Shown: positions 10,672 to 23,716 of the stretch, piece after piece
Numbering within the stretch: the stretch's first letter is position 1
Layout: each line of letters starts with the position of its first letter
Assembly (NCBI GenBank): GCA_026785975.1
Contig: JAJAZB010000314.1
Location: forward strand, 1-32,310
DNA length: 32,310 nucleotides
Direction: 5' to 3'
From: Cytophagaceae bacterium
GTDB taxonomy: Bacteria; Bacteroidota; Bacteroidia; Cytophagales; Spirosomataceae
Notes under the pieces: model-generated
What the model saw: only the letters and a program-made list of their open reading frames with translations
The model's database searches: none
What the model was told of the DNA's origin: nothing
Translations under genes and position numbers: made by a program

Positions 10672-10684
10672 AATTTCAATGAGT

Positions 10685-10775
10685 GAATGCGGTCCGCCGC
10701 GCGGGTGAATGACCGAATGATAGAATAGGAAATGCCTTTTTATTCAATCATTCGGCCGCGCGGCGGAACGCATTC
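10685..10775. repeat. Inverted repeat between DUF1800 and DUF1501 genes; arms differ by one 8-bp unit
   Basis: GAATGCGGTCCGCCGCGCGG-GTGAATGA-CCGAATGATAGAATA vs (reverse complement) GAATGCGTTCCGCCGCGCGG-CCGAATGATTGAATA. Confidence 0.85.
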
Positions 10776-10784
10776 AGAATTAGT

Positions 10785-13198: not shown

Positions 13199-13335
13199 TT
13201 TTTTGTCTGAACCAGGATTGGCCGGGATTTAAGGATTTACGGGATGGTCGATTCTTCAGGATAATTGACTCCTAAATTCTGAATTTATATCCTGTAAATC
13301 CTTAAATCCCGGCCAATCCTGGTTCAGACAAAAAA
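13199..13335. repeat. 47-bp-arm inverted repeat between convergent GH16 and ileS genes; may act as a bidirectional terminator
   Basis: ttttttgtctgaaccaggattggccgggatttaaggatttacgggat (13199-13245) vs 13289-13335, one mismatch. Confidence 0.9.
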
Positions 13336-13352
13336 GACAATCCAGACAATGA

Positions 13353-16300
13353 TCAAACAACCTCTACTCTCACTTCCAATTGGTACTCATCCATGTCGAC
13401 GACTACGGCATCGTGGAGTTCGGGGAGGAAATTGAGGCTCAACGCCTGGGTTTCAGTGCAGATGTATTCGCGGTTGGCTTCGAGGGCGGTTTTCACTAAT
13501 TCTGCGGGCGTTTTTACCGAAATAGTAATTCGGTCGGTCACGTCAAAACCCTGATCCTTACGCACATTCTGAATCCGGTTGACGAAATCGCGGGCGATGC
13601 CTTCGTGGCGCAAATCGTCAGTGAGGGTTACGTCGAGGGCAACCGTCAATCCAGCTTCCTGGGCGGTTAAAAAACCGGGCAAATCCTCGCTCTGGATTTC
13701 AACGTCTTCAAGGTTAATTAGAAATTGGAAATTGGAAATTAGAAATTGACCATTCTTCTCCAATTCCGCAATGTCCGTGGCGGTCATGGCCTGAATGCCA
13801 TTGGCGACTTCCTTCATTTTCGGCCCGAATTTTGGCCCCAGGGTTTTAAAATTCGGCTTTACCTTTTTGTTCAAAATTCCCGAGGCGTCGTCCAGGTACT
13901 CAACGGCTTTTACGTTGACTTCGGCTTTAATCAGGTCTTCAACGCGAGCCAATTGGCGCTTCACATCAGCGTTGAGTACCGGAATCAGTACCCGCGAAAG
14001 TGGCTGCCGCACCTTGAGCCGGTTCACTTTACGGATCGAATGCACGAGCGACGAAACCCGTTGGGCTAAATCCATCGAAGCCTCCAGTTCGGGGTCGATG
14101 TGTTCGCTTTCGGCCGGGTGCAGGGTCGTTAGGTGGACGGACTCGTGGCGCAACGGCGAGCGCATGGCTTTGGCCTTGCCCCGAATGTGATTAGTCATGT
14201 TGCGGTACAGCCAATCGGCGTAAAACGGCGCAATGGGCGACATCAACTGGGAAACCGTCACCAGGCAATGTTGCAGGGTTTCGTACCCGGCGCGTTTGTC
14301 TTCCGTCAGGCCGCCCCGCCAGAAACGCCGCCTCGACAAGCGCAAATACCAGTTGGAAAGCTGATCGGTCACAAAATCCTGAATGGCCCGGCCCGCTTTG
14401 GTCACGTCGTAATCTGCGTAAAACGCATCGACATCTTTAATCAGCGAGTTCAATTTCGACAAAATCCAGCGGTCGAGTTCGGGGAGTTTTTCGTGGGGGA
14501 GGCGGTCAAACTCATTGAGTTCGTAACCGTCGACGTTGGCATAGAGCGCAAAAAACGCGTAGGTGTTGGTGAGGGTACCAAAAAACTTATTGCGCACTTC
14601 CGTCACGCCGTCGAGGTTAAACCGCAGGTTGTCCCAGGGGTTGGCGTTGGTGGCCATGTACCAGCGCACCGGGTCGGCCCCGTACTGATCCAGGGTTTTA
14701 AACGGGTCGGCCGCGTTGCCCAGGCGCTTCGACATTTTGTTGCCGTTTTTGTCGAGTACCAAGCCCGTCGACAACACGTTTTTAAACGCAACCGAATCAT
14801 TTAACAACGTGGAAAGGGCGTGGAGGGTAAAGAACCAACCCCGGGTTTGATCGACGCCCTCCGAGATGAAATCGGCGGGGTAGCTTTTTTCAAAAATCTC
14901 CTTGTTTTCAAACGGGTAGTGCCATTGCGCGTACGGCATCGCGCCCGAATCGAACCAAACGTCAATGAGGTCGAGTTCGCGAGTCATGACTTTCCCGGAG
15001 GGTGAAACCAGATAGATTTCATCGACGTAGGGGCGGTGGAGGTCAAGGGCCTCACCCCCCGGCCCCCTCTCCGATGGAGAGGGGGTGCGCTGATGGAGGA
15101 GTTTTTCGGCTTCGGCCTGGATGCTGTTTTTTACCCGTTCCGTTTCATTCAGGACTTCTTCGTTTGTAAACCGAATGACGTCAAACCCGGCTTCTTTCAA
15201 ATACTCGGTTCGAGCCTGATCGTACTGCGGATAATCTGCCGTTTGATGAATTTCTCCATCCACTTCCACAACTAGACGAGCGGGTATCGAAACAAAATCG
15301 GCGATGTATACGCCAATGGCGTACTGACGCCGGAATTTCACCCCTAAGTTGTTATTGCGTACGACCTGCCATAGCGTATCTTCAGCTTTAGTCGGTGCTT
15401 TCCGATTCGAGCGTCCATATTCCTTCAGAATCCGCCAAGCATCTTCGTTAGCCGTAAACACATTATCCACCAAGGCATTACCCCCCTCTCCATCGGAGAA
15501 GGGCCGGGGGTGAGGCTTTGTGCGGCTACCCACGATTTTCGCCAGAAACATCTCATTCGCCGCCCGTTGCTCCTCGCTCAGTGCGTCGTCTTTCAGCGCG
15601 TGTTTGATGCTGCTTTCCAGTTCAGCAATCGAGCCGATGCACACTTCCTCGCCATCCTCACTGCGCCAGATGGGTAGTGGCGTTCCCCAGTAGCGACTCC
15701 GGCTCAGGTTCCAGTCTACGAGGTTTTCGAGCCAGTTGCCAAACCGCCCCGTACCCGTGCTTTCGGGCTTCCAGTTGATGGTTTTGTTGAGCGCAATCAG
15801 CTTGTCCTTTACCGCCGTGGTGCGGATAAACCAACTGTCGAGCGGGTAGTAGAGCACCGGCTTGTCGGTGCGCCAGCAGTGCGGGTACGGGTGATCGAAT
15901 TTTTGGACGTTAAACGCCTTATTTTCCGTCTTCAATTTGATGCCGATGCGCTCATCGACCGAGAGGTATTTCTCCCGCGCCTGCTTTACCCGTTCGGCTT
16001 CTTTTTCCTCGTCCGACAGGTATTGTTCTTTCACAAATTCCCCGGCGAAGTCGGTGATCTCCGCCACAAACCGGCCCCGCTTGTCCACGATGGGCACCTC
16101 CTTACCAGTTTCGTCCTTCACCATGATCGACGGAATGCCGGTTTGCCGGGCCACCCGGAAGTCATCCGCCCCGAAGGTGGGCGAGGTGTGAACGACGCCG
16201 GTACCGTCCTCGGTCGTGACAAAATCGCCGGAAATCACCCGGAAAGCAGGCAGAGTGCCCGGCCGGATTTCGGGCGTGACGTAAGGCAATAACTGCTCGT

Positions 16301-18848: not shown

Positions 18849-19007
18849 ATGAAAAGGACTTTTCAACCTTCCAACCGCAAGCGTCGCAACAAACATGGCT
18901 TTCGCGAGCGCATGAGCACCGCCAATGGTCGCCGGGTTATTACTGCCCGCCGCGCCAAAGGCCGCTGGAAACTCACCGTTGCCGACGAGAAACGCCACAA
19001 GCAGTAG
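18849..19007 (+). CDS. rpmH: 50S ribosomal protein L34
   Basis: [52 protein letters not shown], 52 aa; canonical rpmH-rnpA order; below ORF-track size cutoff. Confidence 0.97.
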
Positions 19008-19086
19008 TAAAAAGATAAAAGTGAAGAGTGAAAAGTTAATTGTGGAAATTCTAACTTTTCACTCTTCACTTTTATCTTTTTACTAC
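19004..19086. repeat. Perfect 35-bp inverted repeat filling the rpmH-rnpA spacer and including the rpmH stop codon
   Basis: GTAGTAAAAAGATAAAAGTGAAGAGTGAAAAGTTA (19004-19038) vs its exact reverse complement at 19052-19086. Confidence 0.93.
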
Positions 19087-19096
19087 TTTTTATTTG

Positions 19097-19504
19097 ATGC
19101 GCGAAACATTTAAGAAGGCCGAACGGCTTTCGAGCAAAAAGATTATTGAACGGCTTTTTGCGAAGGGTAGCGCGGAAACCATCTCGGTTTTCGGCTACCC
19201 TTTTCGTGTTTTGTACCTTTCCGGGGCAACGCCGCCCGATGCTGCCCCGGTTGAACCCCAACCGCCCGCCATCCTGATTTCAGTGTCGAAGCGGTATTTT
19301 AAGAAAGCCGTCGATCGTAATCTCATCAAACGCCGCATCCGCGAGGCTTACCGCCGCAACAAAGGGCTGCTTTTTGAAGGAACCGCCGCCCATCCAGCTA
19401 CCGACATCGCCCTGATTTACGTGGCCAAAGAAAAAATATCGTTTGATGCGTTAGAAAAAAAGCTGAAATTCGTTCTAAAACAGATTGCCAAAGCGACCGT
19501 GTGA
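19097..19504 (+). CDS. rnpA: Ribonuclease P protein component
   Basis: MRETFKKAERLSSKKIIERLFAKG...VSKRYFKKAVDRNLIKRRIREAYRRNKG. Confidence 0.95.
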   Translation: MRETFKKAERLSSKKIIERLFAKGSAETISVFGYPFRVLYLSGATPPDAAPVEPQPPAILISVSKRYFKKAVDRNLIKRRIREAYRRNKGLLFEGTAAHPATDIALIYVAKEKISFDALEKKLKFVLKQIAKATV

Positions 19505-19535
19505 TTTTGTGAATGATTTTTGCAGCAACTCTGTT

Positions 19536-19665
19536 AGGACTATCGCTCACGGGGCCTGGAGCCTCCCCCCCGGCCCCTCTCCGGTGGAGAGGGGTGACTC
19601 AGAAACCTGGATTACCTCCCCTCTCCACCGGAGAGGGGCCGGGGGTGAGGCTAAGCGAAAGTCCT
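19536..19665. repeat. ORF-less palindromic element sharing its ends with the ileS DUF559 insert
   Basis: Core 19561-19651 (91 bp): gcctcccccccggcccctctccggtggagagggg ... cccctctccaccggagaggggccgggggtgaggc; outer AGGACTATCGCT / AGCGAAAGTCCT. Confidence 0.85.
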
Positions 19666-19720
19666 ATCTGTACGATTCCTGTTCTCTTTTTTTAGAAATC
19701 TTGTTTTGACCGACATTTCC

Positions 19721-21379
19721 ATGAAACGCCGTTCCCTCAAACTCCTCCTGCTGACCGGCCTGACCGGAATCGGCCTCACGTTCGCTTCGTTCACCGATCC
19801 TGGTGATCGCTTTTTTGAGATTGCCAAAAACCTGGACATTTTCGCTACCCTGTTTAAGGAACTCAATACGTACTACGTCGACGAGATCAACCCCAACAAA
19901 ACGATGCGCGCCAGCATTGAGGCCATGCTCAAATCGCTCGATCCGTACACCAACTACTTCCCGGAAGACGACATTGAGGATTACATGACCATGACCACTG
20001 GCAAGTACAACGGCATCGGGGCGCTCATTGGCACCCGGCAGGGGCAGCACCTGGTCATGATGGTGTACGAGGAAACGCCCGCCGAAAAAGCGGGTCTGAA
20101 AATTGGCGACGAAATTCTGAAAATCGACGGGGTGGATTTGAAAAGTCGGCCCGGCCTCGACATTGGCAAACTGCTGAAGGGCCAAACGGGTACGTCGGTA
20201 AAACTGACCGTAAAACGCTACGGTCAGCAATCCAGTGAAGAACTATCGGTGGGCCGCGACGTGGTCAAAATGACCAACGTGCCCTACTACGGCATGGTTT
20301 CGGACGAAGTGGGCTACATCGACTTGAAGGATTTTACCAACACGGCTTCGCGGGAAGTACGGGCGGCATTCCAGGATTTGAAGGGCAAGGGCATGAAGAA
20401 ACTCATCCTCGACCTGCGCGACAACCCCGGCGGATTGCTCAACATGGCGGTGGATATTTCCAACGTGTTTATTCCAAAAGATGCCGAAGTCGTGAGTACC
20501 AAAGGCAAAGTGACGGAGTGGAACAAAACCTACACGGCACTCAATCCGGCGATGGACGCCGAAATGCCCTTGGTCGTCCTGACCAACAGCCGCAGCGCCT
20601 CAGCCGCTGAAATCGTGGCCGGTGTGATCCAGGATTACGACCGGGGCGTATTGGTCGGACAGCGCAGTTTTGGCAAAGGATTGGTACAGGTTACCCGCGA
20701 TTTATCGTACAATTCCAAGTTGAAAGTGACCACGGCCAAGTACTACATCCCGTCGGGGCGTTGCATTCAGGCCATTGATTACAGCCACCGCAACCCGGAT
20801 GGTTCCGTGGGCAAAATTGCGGATTCGTTGAAGGCCGCCTTCAAGACCAAAAACGGGCGGGCGGTGTACGACGGGGGCGGCATTGCGCCCGACGTGGACG
20901 TTGAAAAGATGGTCCCCGCAGCGGTCACGGCCAGCCTGATGCAAAAAGGGCTGCTTTTCGACTACGCCAACAAGTACCACCACGACCATCCGACCGTTAA
21001 GCCTGCCCGCGAGTTCTTTTTATCCGACACCGACTATCAGGGTTTCACCAAGTGGCTGGCCGACAAGGAGTACGATTACACGACGCAGGTCGAGCGGGAG
21101 TTTGACGAATTAGAGGCCTCGGCTAAAAAGGAAAAATACTACGACGGCGTCCAGGAGCAATTGAAGTCGCTCCGTACAAAGTTATCGCACAGCAAAGAAA
21201 CCGATTTGCAAAAGTTCAAGGACGAAATCAAGTACCAATTGGAGCAGGAGATTGTGGTGCATTATTATTTGCAAAAAGGCGTTCGTGAGCTTTCTTTCGC
21301 CAAAGACCCGGAAATCCAAACTGCCGTTAAACTCTTCGCCGATATGCCCCGGTATCAAGCGATCTTGAAAGGAAAGTAG
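19721..21379 (+). CDS. S41 family C-terminal processing peptidase with PDZ domain
   Basis: MVYEETPAEKAGLKIGDEILKIDG (PDZ); LILDLRDNPGGLL; SASAAEIVAGVIQDYDRGVLVGQRSFGKGLVQ (Ser/Lys active site). Confidence 0.93.
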   Translation: MKRRSLKLLLLTGLTGIGLTFASFTDPGDRFFEIAKNLDIFATLFKELNTYYVDEINPNKTMRASIEAMLKSLDPYTNYFPEDDIEDYMTMTTGKYNGIGALIGTRQGQHLVMMVYEETPAEKAGLKIGDEILKIDGVDLKSRPGLDIGKLLKGQTGTSVKLTVKRYGQQSSEELSVGRDVVKMTNVPYYGMVSDEVGYIDLKDFTNTASREVRAAFQDLKGKGMKKLILDLRDNPGGLLNMAVDISNVFIPKDAEVVSTKGKVTEWNKTYTALNPAMDAEMPLVVLTNSRSASAAEIVAGVIQDYDRGVLVGQRSFGKGLVQVTRDLSYNSKLKVTTAKYYIPSGRCIQAIDYSHRNPDGSVGKIADSLKAAFKTKNGRAVYDGGGIAPDVDVEKMVPAAVTASLMQKGLLFDYANKYHHDHPTVKPAREFFLSDTDYQGFTKWLADKEYDYTTQVEREFDELEASAKKEKYYDGVQEQLKSLRTKLSHSKETDLQKFKDEIKYQLEQEIVVHYYLQKGVRELSFAKDPEIQTAVKLFADMPRYQAILKGK

Positions 21380-21475
21380 GGCAATTTAGGGCATAGAGCA
21401 TAGGGCAGAGGGCATAGTTGGCTTACGCAAATTTAACTATGCCCTCTGCCCTATGCTCTATGCCCTAAATTGCCC
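21379..21475. repeat. Perfect 41-bp inverted repeat filling the S41 protease-tsaB spacer
   Basis: GGGCAATTTAGGGCATAGAGCATAGGGCAGAGGGCATAGTT (21379-21419) vs exact reverse complement 21435-21475; left arm starts in the stop codon, right arm ends 1 nt before ATG. Confidence 0.95.
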
Positions 21476-22178: not shown

Positions 22179-22206
22179 AAAAAGCGCCGAGGCAAAGCCC
22201 CGGCGC
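22179..22206 (-). terminator. GC-rich terminator, T-run on minus strand
   Basis: aaaaa-gcgccgaggcaaagccccggcgc; minus strand GCGCCGGGG..CCTCGGCGC-TTTTT; flanked by the palindrome TGAAGAATCAGATTCTTCA (22209-22227). Confidence 0.65.
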
Positions 22207-22450
22207 AATGAAGAATCAGATTCTTCAGAACTTGTTTTATAAAATTGATAGGGTACCTAAAAGAAGCAAGCCGCGCCGCCGCGCTGGTATCTCCCTCAGT
22301 GGCTTATGGTTGACACCAATTGCATGGTGTAAAAGTAAGGAAATTTGGTTGATTGTTTGAACAGTGATTAAATATTCAATGCACTTTGGATAAAAATCAA
22401 CACAAAAAAGCGCCGAAGTAAAACTCCGGCGCTTTGGTACCCTATCAGAT
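22180..22450 (-). ncRNA. Candidate structured minus-strand noncoding transcript(s) between two similar terminators
   Basis: Two GCGCCGRRG hairpins with minus-strand T-runs plus an exact 12-bp inverted pair TGATAGGGTACC (22246-22257) / GGTACCCTATCA (22436-22447); no convincing ORF. Confidence 0.3.
22404..22435 (-). terminator. Second GC-rich terminator, symmetric, stronger T-run on minus strand
   Basis: aaaaaagcgccgaagtaaaactccggcgcttt. Confidence 0.65.
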
Positions 22451-23620: not shown

Positions 23621-23716
23621 TTTTTTAGGAGTGCCGCGTGCGAAGTGCTTGGTGCAGAGTTAAAAAACAAAGGCTTCGCGCTCTGCACCAAGTACTGCGC
23701 ACGAAGCACTAAAAAA
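23621..23716. repeat. Inverted repeat (GTGCTTGGTGC/GTACTTGGTGC words) filling the kduD-IclR spacer
   Basis: GTGCGAAGTGCTTGGTGCAGAG (23638-23659) vs CTCTGCACCAAGTACTGCGCAC (23681-23702), outer TTTTTTAG / CTAAAAAA. Confidence 0.87.

Follow-up and report, generated by a model that had tools for sequence, protein, structure and literature searches.

The 132-bp element at positions 19535-19666 of the window, i.e. the whole stretch of 32,310 nucleotides that was analysed, is an IS701-type MITE, since its ends are shared with insertion sequences, 5-bp duplications border its copies and the corresponding spacers of relatives are free of it. The element likely represents a nested mobile pair, in which the MITE forms the shell and a double-hairpin repeat with DUF559 as cognate gene forms the core, and whose palindromic copies decay. 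As this copy is an IS701-type MITE, DUF559 is not needed as its mover.

Structure and setting of the element

The window corresponds to contig C314 of a fragmented genome of 4.93 Mb (523 contigs, 88% complete). Copy numbers obtained from this assembly are lower bounds, since many contigs stop inside elements; contigs breaking off in this way are C64, C85, C87, C91, C140, C154, C179, C285, C286, C372 and C498.

The MITE is located in the spacer between rnpA upstream (19094-19504, + strand, putative start codon) and the gene of an S41 (C-terminal processing) peptidase downstream (19706-21379, + strand, start probably at 19721), and the spacer insertion has no ORF of its own. Its terminal inverted repeats follow TAGGACT(A/T)TCGCT and are TAGGACTATCGCT at 19535-19547 (+ strand), of the type of the IS701-family ends in relatives, and AGCGAAAGTCCTA at 19654-19666 (- strand). 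An earlier reading of the letters alone (sequence-only reading) had noticed this outer pair, which is real and slightly longer than given there. Immediately outside the outer repeats, two identical copies of TCTGT (19530-19534 and 19667-19671), missed by that reading, were assigned as target-site duplication from sequence and statistics. The double-hairpin core spans 19560-19652. Its arms (left, 19560-19594, + strand; right, 19618-19652, - strand) are 35 nt each and 97% complementary, and each is itself a hairpin, as the sequence-only reading had described together with the short, ORF-less centre. This centre, TGACTCAGAAACCTGGATTACCT at 19595-19617, has 23 nt and is similar in most copies of the source genome. 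Folded as a single strand, the element reaches z = -10.6 as DNA and z = -11.2 as RNA compared to shuffles. The genome-wide search for the end sequence, which had been proposed as a check, gave 41 matches of the arm pattern in the 4.93-Mb assembly, whereas the reversed control gave none.

Five more long inverted repeats are present in the window (13199-13335, 19003-19087, 21379-21475, 10684-10776 and 23630-23710), with arms of 30-47 nt which are 86-100% complementary and unrelated in sequence. A hairpin-like direct repeat with an A-run, AAAAAGCGCCGAGGCAAAGCCCCGGCGC, occurs at 22179-22206 and 22405-22432, 226 bp apart.

Outer shell

Allowing up to one mismatch, TAGGACTWTCGCT was found 77 times in the genome, compared to 12 matches for the reversed control. 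Among 21 two-ended copies, 15 are bordered by a 5-bp target duplication with at least 4 of 5 matches (null 4.9%); length 5 carries the signal, and a few cases have length 6. A genome of the same family (G053) encodes an intact IS701-family transposase of 334 AA (NF049921, E 1e-108, above the cut-off). The ends of this insertion sequence (L184), TAGGACTTTCGCTTAG, have 16 nt identical to a MITE end, and the duplication is TTCGT. Duplications were seen around two of the IS copies (TTCGT and CTTAT), the remaining ones being imperfect, and further IS copies in other genomes have ends of the same type as the G053 element. In the source genome, contig C118 carries an insertion sequence of 1.1 kb whose transposase is broken; the end of this IS, TAGGACTTACGCTCAAAGGGCTTGAAG, agrees with a MITE end in 23 of 27 positions. 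The 88%-complete source assembly yielded no intact IS701 copy, and no plasmid record matched the element.

Of 29 relatives examined, 24 yielded the rnpA-S41 gene pair, and their spacers measure 6-169 bp. The element is absent from all 24. The spacer in the window has 216 bp; subtracting 137 bp for the element and one duplication leaves 79 bp. Terminal repeats shared with an IS, a duplication of fixed length, small size without a transposase gene and the presence of several copies, which are features of an IS701-type MITE, are all found here, and the terminal repeats and 5-bp duplications bear out the MITE-like nature assumed in the sequence-only reading. As the ends agree with those of the IS and the duplication has the matching length, we infer that an IS701-type DDE transposase mobilised the element in trans.

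The core as a separate module

The core belongs to a high-copy, genome-specific family. An IS701-type end was found on 25 of 35 readable core flanks in the source genome (chance 1.7%) and is absent on 10, the DUF559 insert in ileS being among the latter. The sister genera G051, G064 and G028 harbour an unrelated MITE that has CGGAAGTATATACTTA at its ends and is bordered by 8-bp duplications (exact in four cases, 7 of 8 in one). Its interior is a double hairpin of ca. 87 bp, whose arms are of the same type and enclose a centre of ca. 21 nt; elsewhere in these genera the core is free of both outer ends. A search for the IS behind this sister MITE returned only MITE-sized pairs as outstanding.

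Within single elements, both arms have mirror-identical loops in 15 of 19 cores from the sister genera (12% expected) and in 8 of 9 cores of the source genome (38% expected), pointing to a correction of one arm from the other.

A second hairpin family, ACCCCCAACCCCCTNAAGGGGGC, has 93 matches in the source genome, and one of its copies (C72) also lies within an IS701-type MITE. Stand-alone cores of this family are placed in extended flanking palindromes in 3 of 15 cases (null 0.4%), compared to 0 of 13 in G016, which is only suggestive of a targeting rule for stand-alone cores. At L313, L319 and L334 (G000), stand-alone doublets of the second family are found within longer unique inverted repeats, a layout as if the doublets had entered the loop of a pre-existing hairpin.

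Decay of copies

Shortened copies of 38-96 bp have kept the outer ends and mostly the duplication and have lost the middle. The deletion junction lies in a direct repeat of 3-8 nt in 15 of 16 cases, whereas random central deletions average 0.8; junction repeats include CACC, GGAC, GCT and CCGCGCGG. Slipped mispairing across the palindrome predicts such junctions and would be a suitable explanation. In Tn10 and Tn5, deletion of a palindrome by slipped mispairing is known as nearly precise excision. A palindromic form of 39 bp occurs at four loci (L143, L145, L163 and L164), with two exact 5-bp duplications and two of 4 of 5; it may be the minimal deletion product, or perhaps the smallest mobile form.

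DUF559 inserts in host genes

A hairpin-flanked DUF559 insert, without the outer MITE ends, is located in frame inside ileS (15050-15515, - strand), with the DUF559 domain at 15111-15425 (- strand, E 7e-32). The right arm of the 132-bp element and the right end of this insert share 94% identity, which substantiates the inverted ends that had been proposed as common to both. The insertion site is directly before the conserved segment (D/E)LH(R/K)PYVD; bacterial IleRS of known structure have no insert at that point.

DUF559 is in frame with the flanking coding sequence at 27 loci. ileS is the host in five genera, i.e. that of the window and four others. Further hosts are mnmE, the gene of a succinyl-CoA:3-ketoacid transferase, uvrA, metH, the gene of a methylmalonyl-CoA mutase and others, whereby all host names except ileS are readings of the flanking sequence. 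In Flavobacteriia (Arenibacter, Aequorivita, Cellulophaga and Capnocytophaga) the domain is in frame in putative leuS (L276, L279, L283-L285, L287, L289-L291, L295 and L309; some of these loci retain inverted hairpin flanks), and in an Anaerolineaceae MAG in putative priA. Palindromic repeats in frame within protein genes are also known as Rickettsia palindromic elements; unlike the DUF559 elements, these are not known to contain a nuclease gene.

The DUF559 tree sorts by host gene and not by genome (ileS 95/95, mnmE 98/94), and 10 host-gene changes are required for all groups, compared to 25.6 in shuffles. In this clustering by host gene, the in-frame copies resemble homing endonucleases. The DUF559 domain in the window retains every invariant alignment column, including E34, D62, E73, D75, H79 and D88. 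For the structural model, the top hit overall is 3hrl, a putative endonuclease-like protein, and among characterised proteins the homing endonuclease I-Bth0305I (3r3p) matches best. DUF559 is predicted to be a nuclease of Vsr-like type, related to the EDxHD homing endonucleases.

DUF559 and hairpin repeats across genomes

PF04480 was found in 57 of 121 genomes of the host family. Using as cut-off a flank score reached by none of 28 control loci, inverted hairpin flanks were detected at 46 of 68 DUF559 genes; about half of the free-standing DUF559 genes have no clear flanking inverted repeat. Hairpin-flanked DUF559 occurs across phyla, with free genes carrying hairpins in Hymenobacter, Chloroflexi and others. 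The only DUF559 gene of G016 is surrounded by an arm family with 91 matches in this genome and at most 2 in any of the 120 other genomes. The source genome contains two hairpin families with one DUF559 gene in each; that of the second family (G000 C404:703-1020, L077) lies between complete doublets at 561-638 and 1054-1123. The arms of the element belong to the same genome-specific family as those of the local DUF559 gene, and the same holds for G016 and the second family. Arms are, as the sequence-only reading had assumed, common to DUF559-bearing and ORF-less copies, and its analogy to REP/RAYT pairs is sustained by genome-specific hairpin doublets accompanied by one flanked gene. At G111:C3:135663-136643, three consecutive DUF559 matches were observed, the second and third being 333 bp apart.

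Frequent arms in genomes lacking DUF559, or a lack of correlation between both, had been named beforehand as counter-evidence. This was found in part: the arm type of the window element is present without a DUF559 match in several genomes (G035, G073, G076 and G096), and the presence of arm and of DUF559 was not significantly correlated among the 121 genomes (13/22 vs. 44/99, p = 0.24). The local association was very strong, with flanks at 46/68 DUF559 genes vs. 0/28 controls. If DUF559 were lost more readily than the repeats, orphan hairpin families should arise, which is an argument and not a result.

Alternative explanations

According to the sequence-only reading, the DUF559 protein moves the short copy as a non-autonomous relative, and the outer pair merely extends the dyad. 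The arms common to the element and the ileS insert, the existence of stand-alone cores without outer ends and the match between genome-specific arm families and local DUF559 arms are in line with this. DUF559 as mover of this copy is nevertheless disfavoured because the 5-bp duplications lie outside the outer repeats and not at the arms; furthermore, the outer repeats equal IS701-family ends, and the ileS insert is devoid of them. A DDE transposase is indicated instead by the outer repeats, by duplications of exactly 5 bp and by an IS701-family insertion sequence that matches, and we regard movement of this copy by DUF559 as improbable. Movement of the core as a REP/REPIN by a RAYT (Y1 HUH) transposase, with DUF559 as a passenger, is quite improbable as well: the doublet anatomy resembles REPINs (PMC3116915) and Y1 genes are present in 9 of 9 genomes tested, but these arms are missing within 1.5 kb of all 26 Y1 loci, they have no GTAG tag, and several Y1 loci carry different repeats of their own. 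A host function of the element as structured RNA or as terminator, located between rnpA and the S41 gene, would agree with the very stable fold and the intergenic position. Such a function is very improbable, as no Rfam family matched anywhere in the window, the same spacer of relatives is without the element, the same sequence occurs at dozens of unrelated sites, and no T-run directly follows the stem; the element may still have been co-opted later as a terminator.

For the core, a serious rival remains, namely that the hairpin families spread passively by replication slippage, gene conversion and hitch-hiking on MITEs, with DUF559 as captured cargo without a role. Arms in genomes without DUF559 fit this, and the excess of mirror-identical arm loops (15/19 vs. 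12% expected) points to template-switch correction. DUF559 is, however, flanked far more often than the controls, in many phyla, and the gene-specific DUF559 clades and invariant catalytic-type residues indicate selection for activity. Passive spread is considered a possible but rather doubtful account.

Comparison with known systems

IS-derived MITEs such as MITEAba12 with ISAba12 (PMC6382973) are likewise short and ORF-less, with inverted ends shared with the IS, a duplication of fixed length and many copies. In contrast to these, the element described here holds a second, independently repeated double hairpin and has many deletion derivatives, down to 38-39 bp. REPINs or BIMEs with RAYT (PMC3116915, PMC2817692, PMC3733652) are similar to the core in that short hairpins form inverted doublets around a short spacer, with tens of copies per genome, genome-specific and with one flanked cognate gene. 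REPs are defined by a GTAG (or CGTC) tag at the foot of the hairpin (PMC3733652), whereas the arm here, CCTCACCCCCGGCCCCTCTCC..., lacks GTAG; no RAYT is nearby, the candidate cognate gene being the Vsr/EDxHD-type nuclease DUF559, and the repeats are often inside genes or MITEs. EDxHD homing endonucleases (I-Bth0305I, PDB 3r3p) share with DUF559 the closest characterised fold to its model and the grouping of copies from one host gene into one clade across genera; DUF559, in contrast, is hairpin-flanked without a surrounding intron or intein and remains part of the host protein, inserted in frame. With respect to the proposed DUF559 hairpin class, the element shows the arm family but, being ORF-less, has no internal DUF559 gene. 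The hairpins are a candidate substrate of the DUF559 protein.

Proposed explanation and implications

In the nested-pair explanation, an IS701-type DDE transposase would act in trans on the ends of the shell (19535-19666), and insertion of the MITE into the rnpA-S41 spacer duplicated 5 bp of the target. The core (19560-19652), as a member of a high-copy double-hairpin family with DUF559 as putative cognate gene, would have entered a MITE and then have been amplified along with it. DUF559 most likely would promote the spread of its own hairpin family, candidate routes being nicking of the hairpin, or homing-type cleavage and repair at uninserted gene sites. Palindromic copies decay afterwards, as strand slippage deletes the sequence between short direct repeats and scars of 38-96 bp result.

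Whether DUF559, as a homing-endonuclease-type protein, is the cognate enzyme of widespread double-hairpin repeats, parallel to RAYT for REPINs, appears evenly balanced to us. These repeats would exist in three forms, i.e. accompanied by DUF559 in frame in housekeeping genes, as doublets standing alone, and within unrelated MITEs which amplify them. In the open-licence PMC literature searched, no description of a relation between DUF559 and inverted repeats was found, and the titles and abstracts of the 14 papers on DUF559 do not touch on the topic. The data hint at a second kind of partnership between hairpin repeats and a nuclease in bacteria.

The nesting in two MITE families means that one repeat can ride on the transposase of another. 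The enzymes to which bacterial hairpin repeats are generally linked are the RAYTs; if DUF559 is a second such class, a candidate enzyme would become available for the many G+C-rich hairpin repeats that have no known mover, and DUF559, a domain of unknown function, would obtain a biological setting. The in-frame copies in ileS, mnmE, uvrA and putative leuS would be inserts tolerated unspliced in essential proteins.
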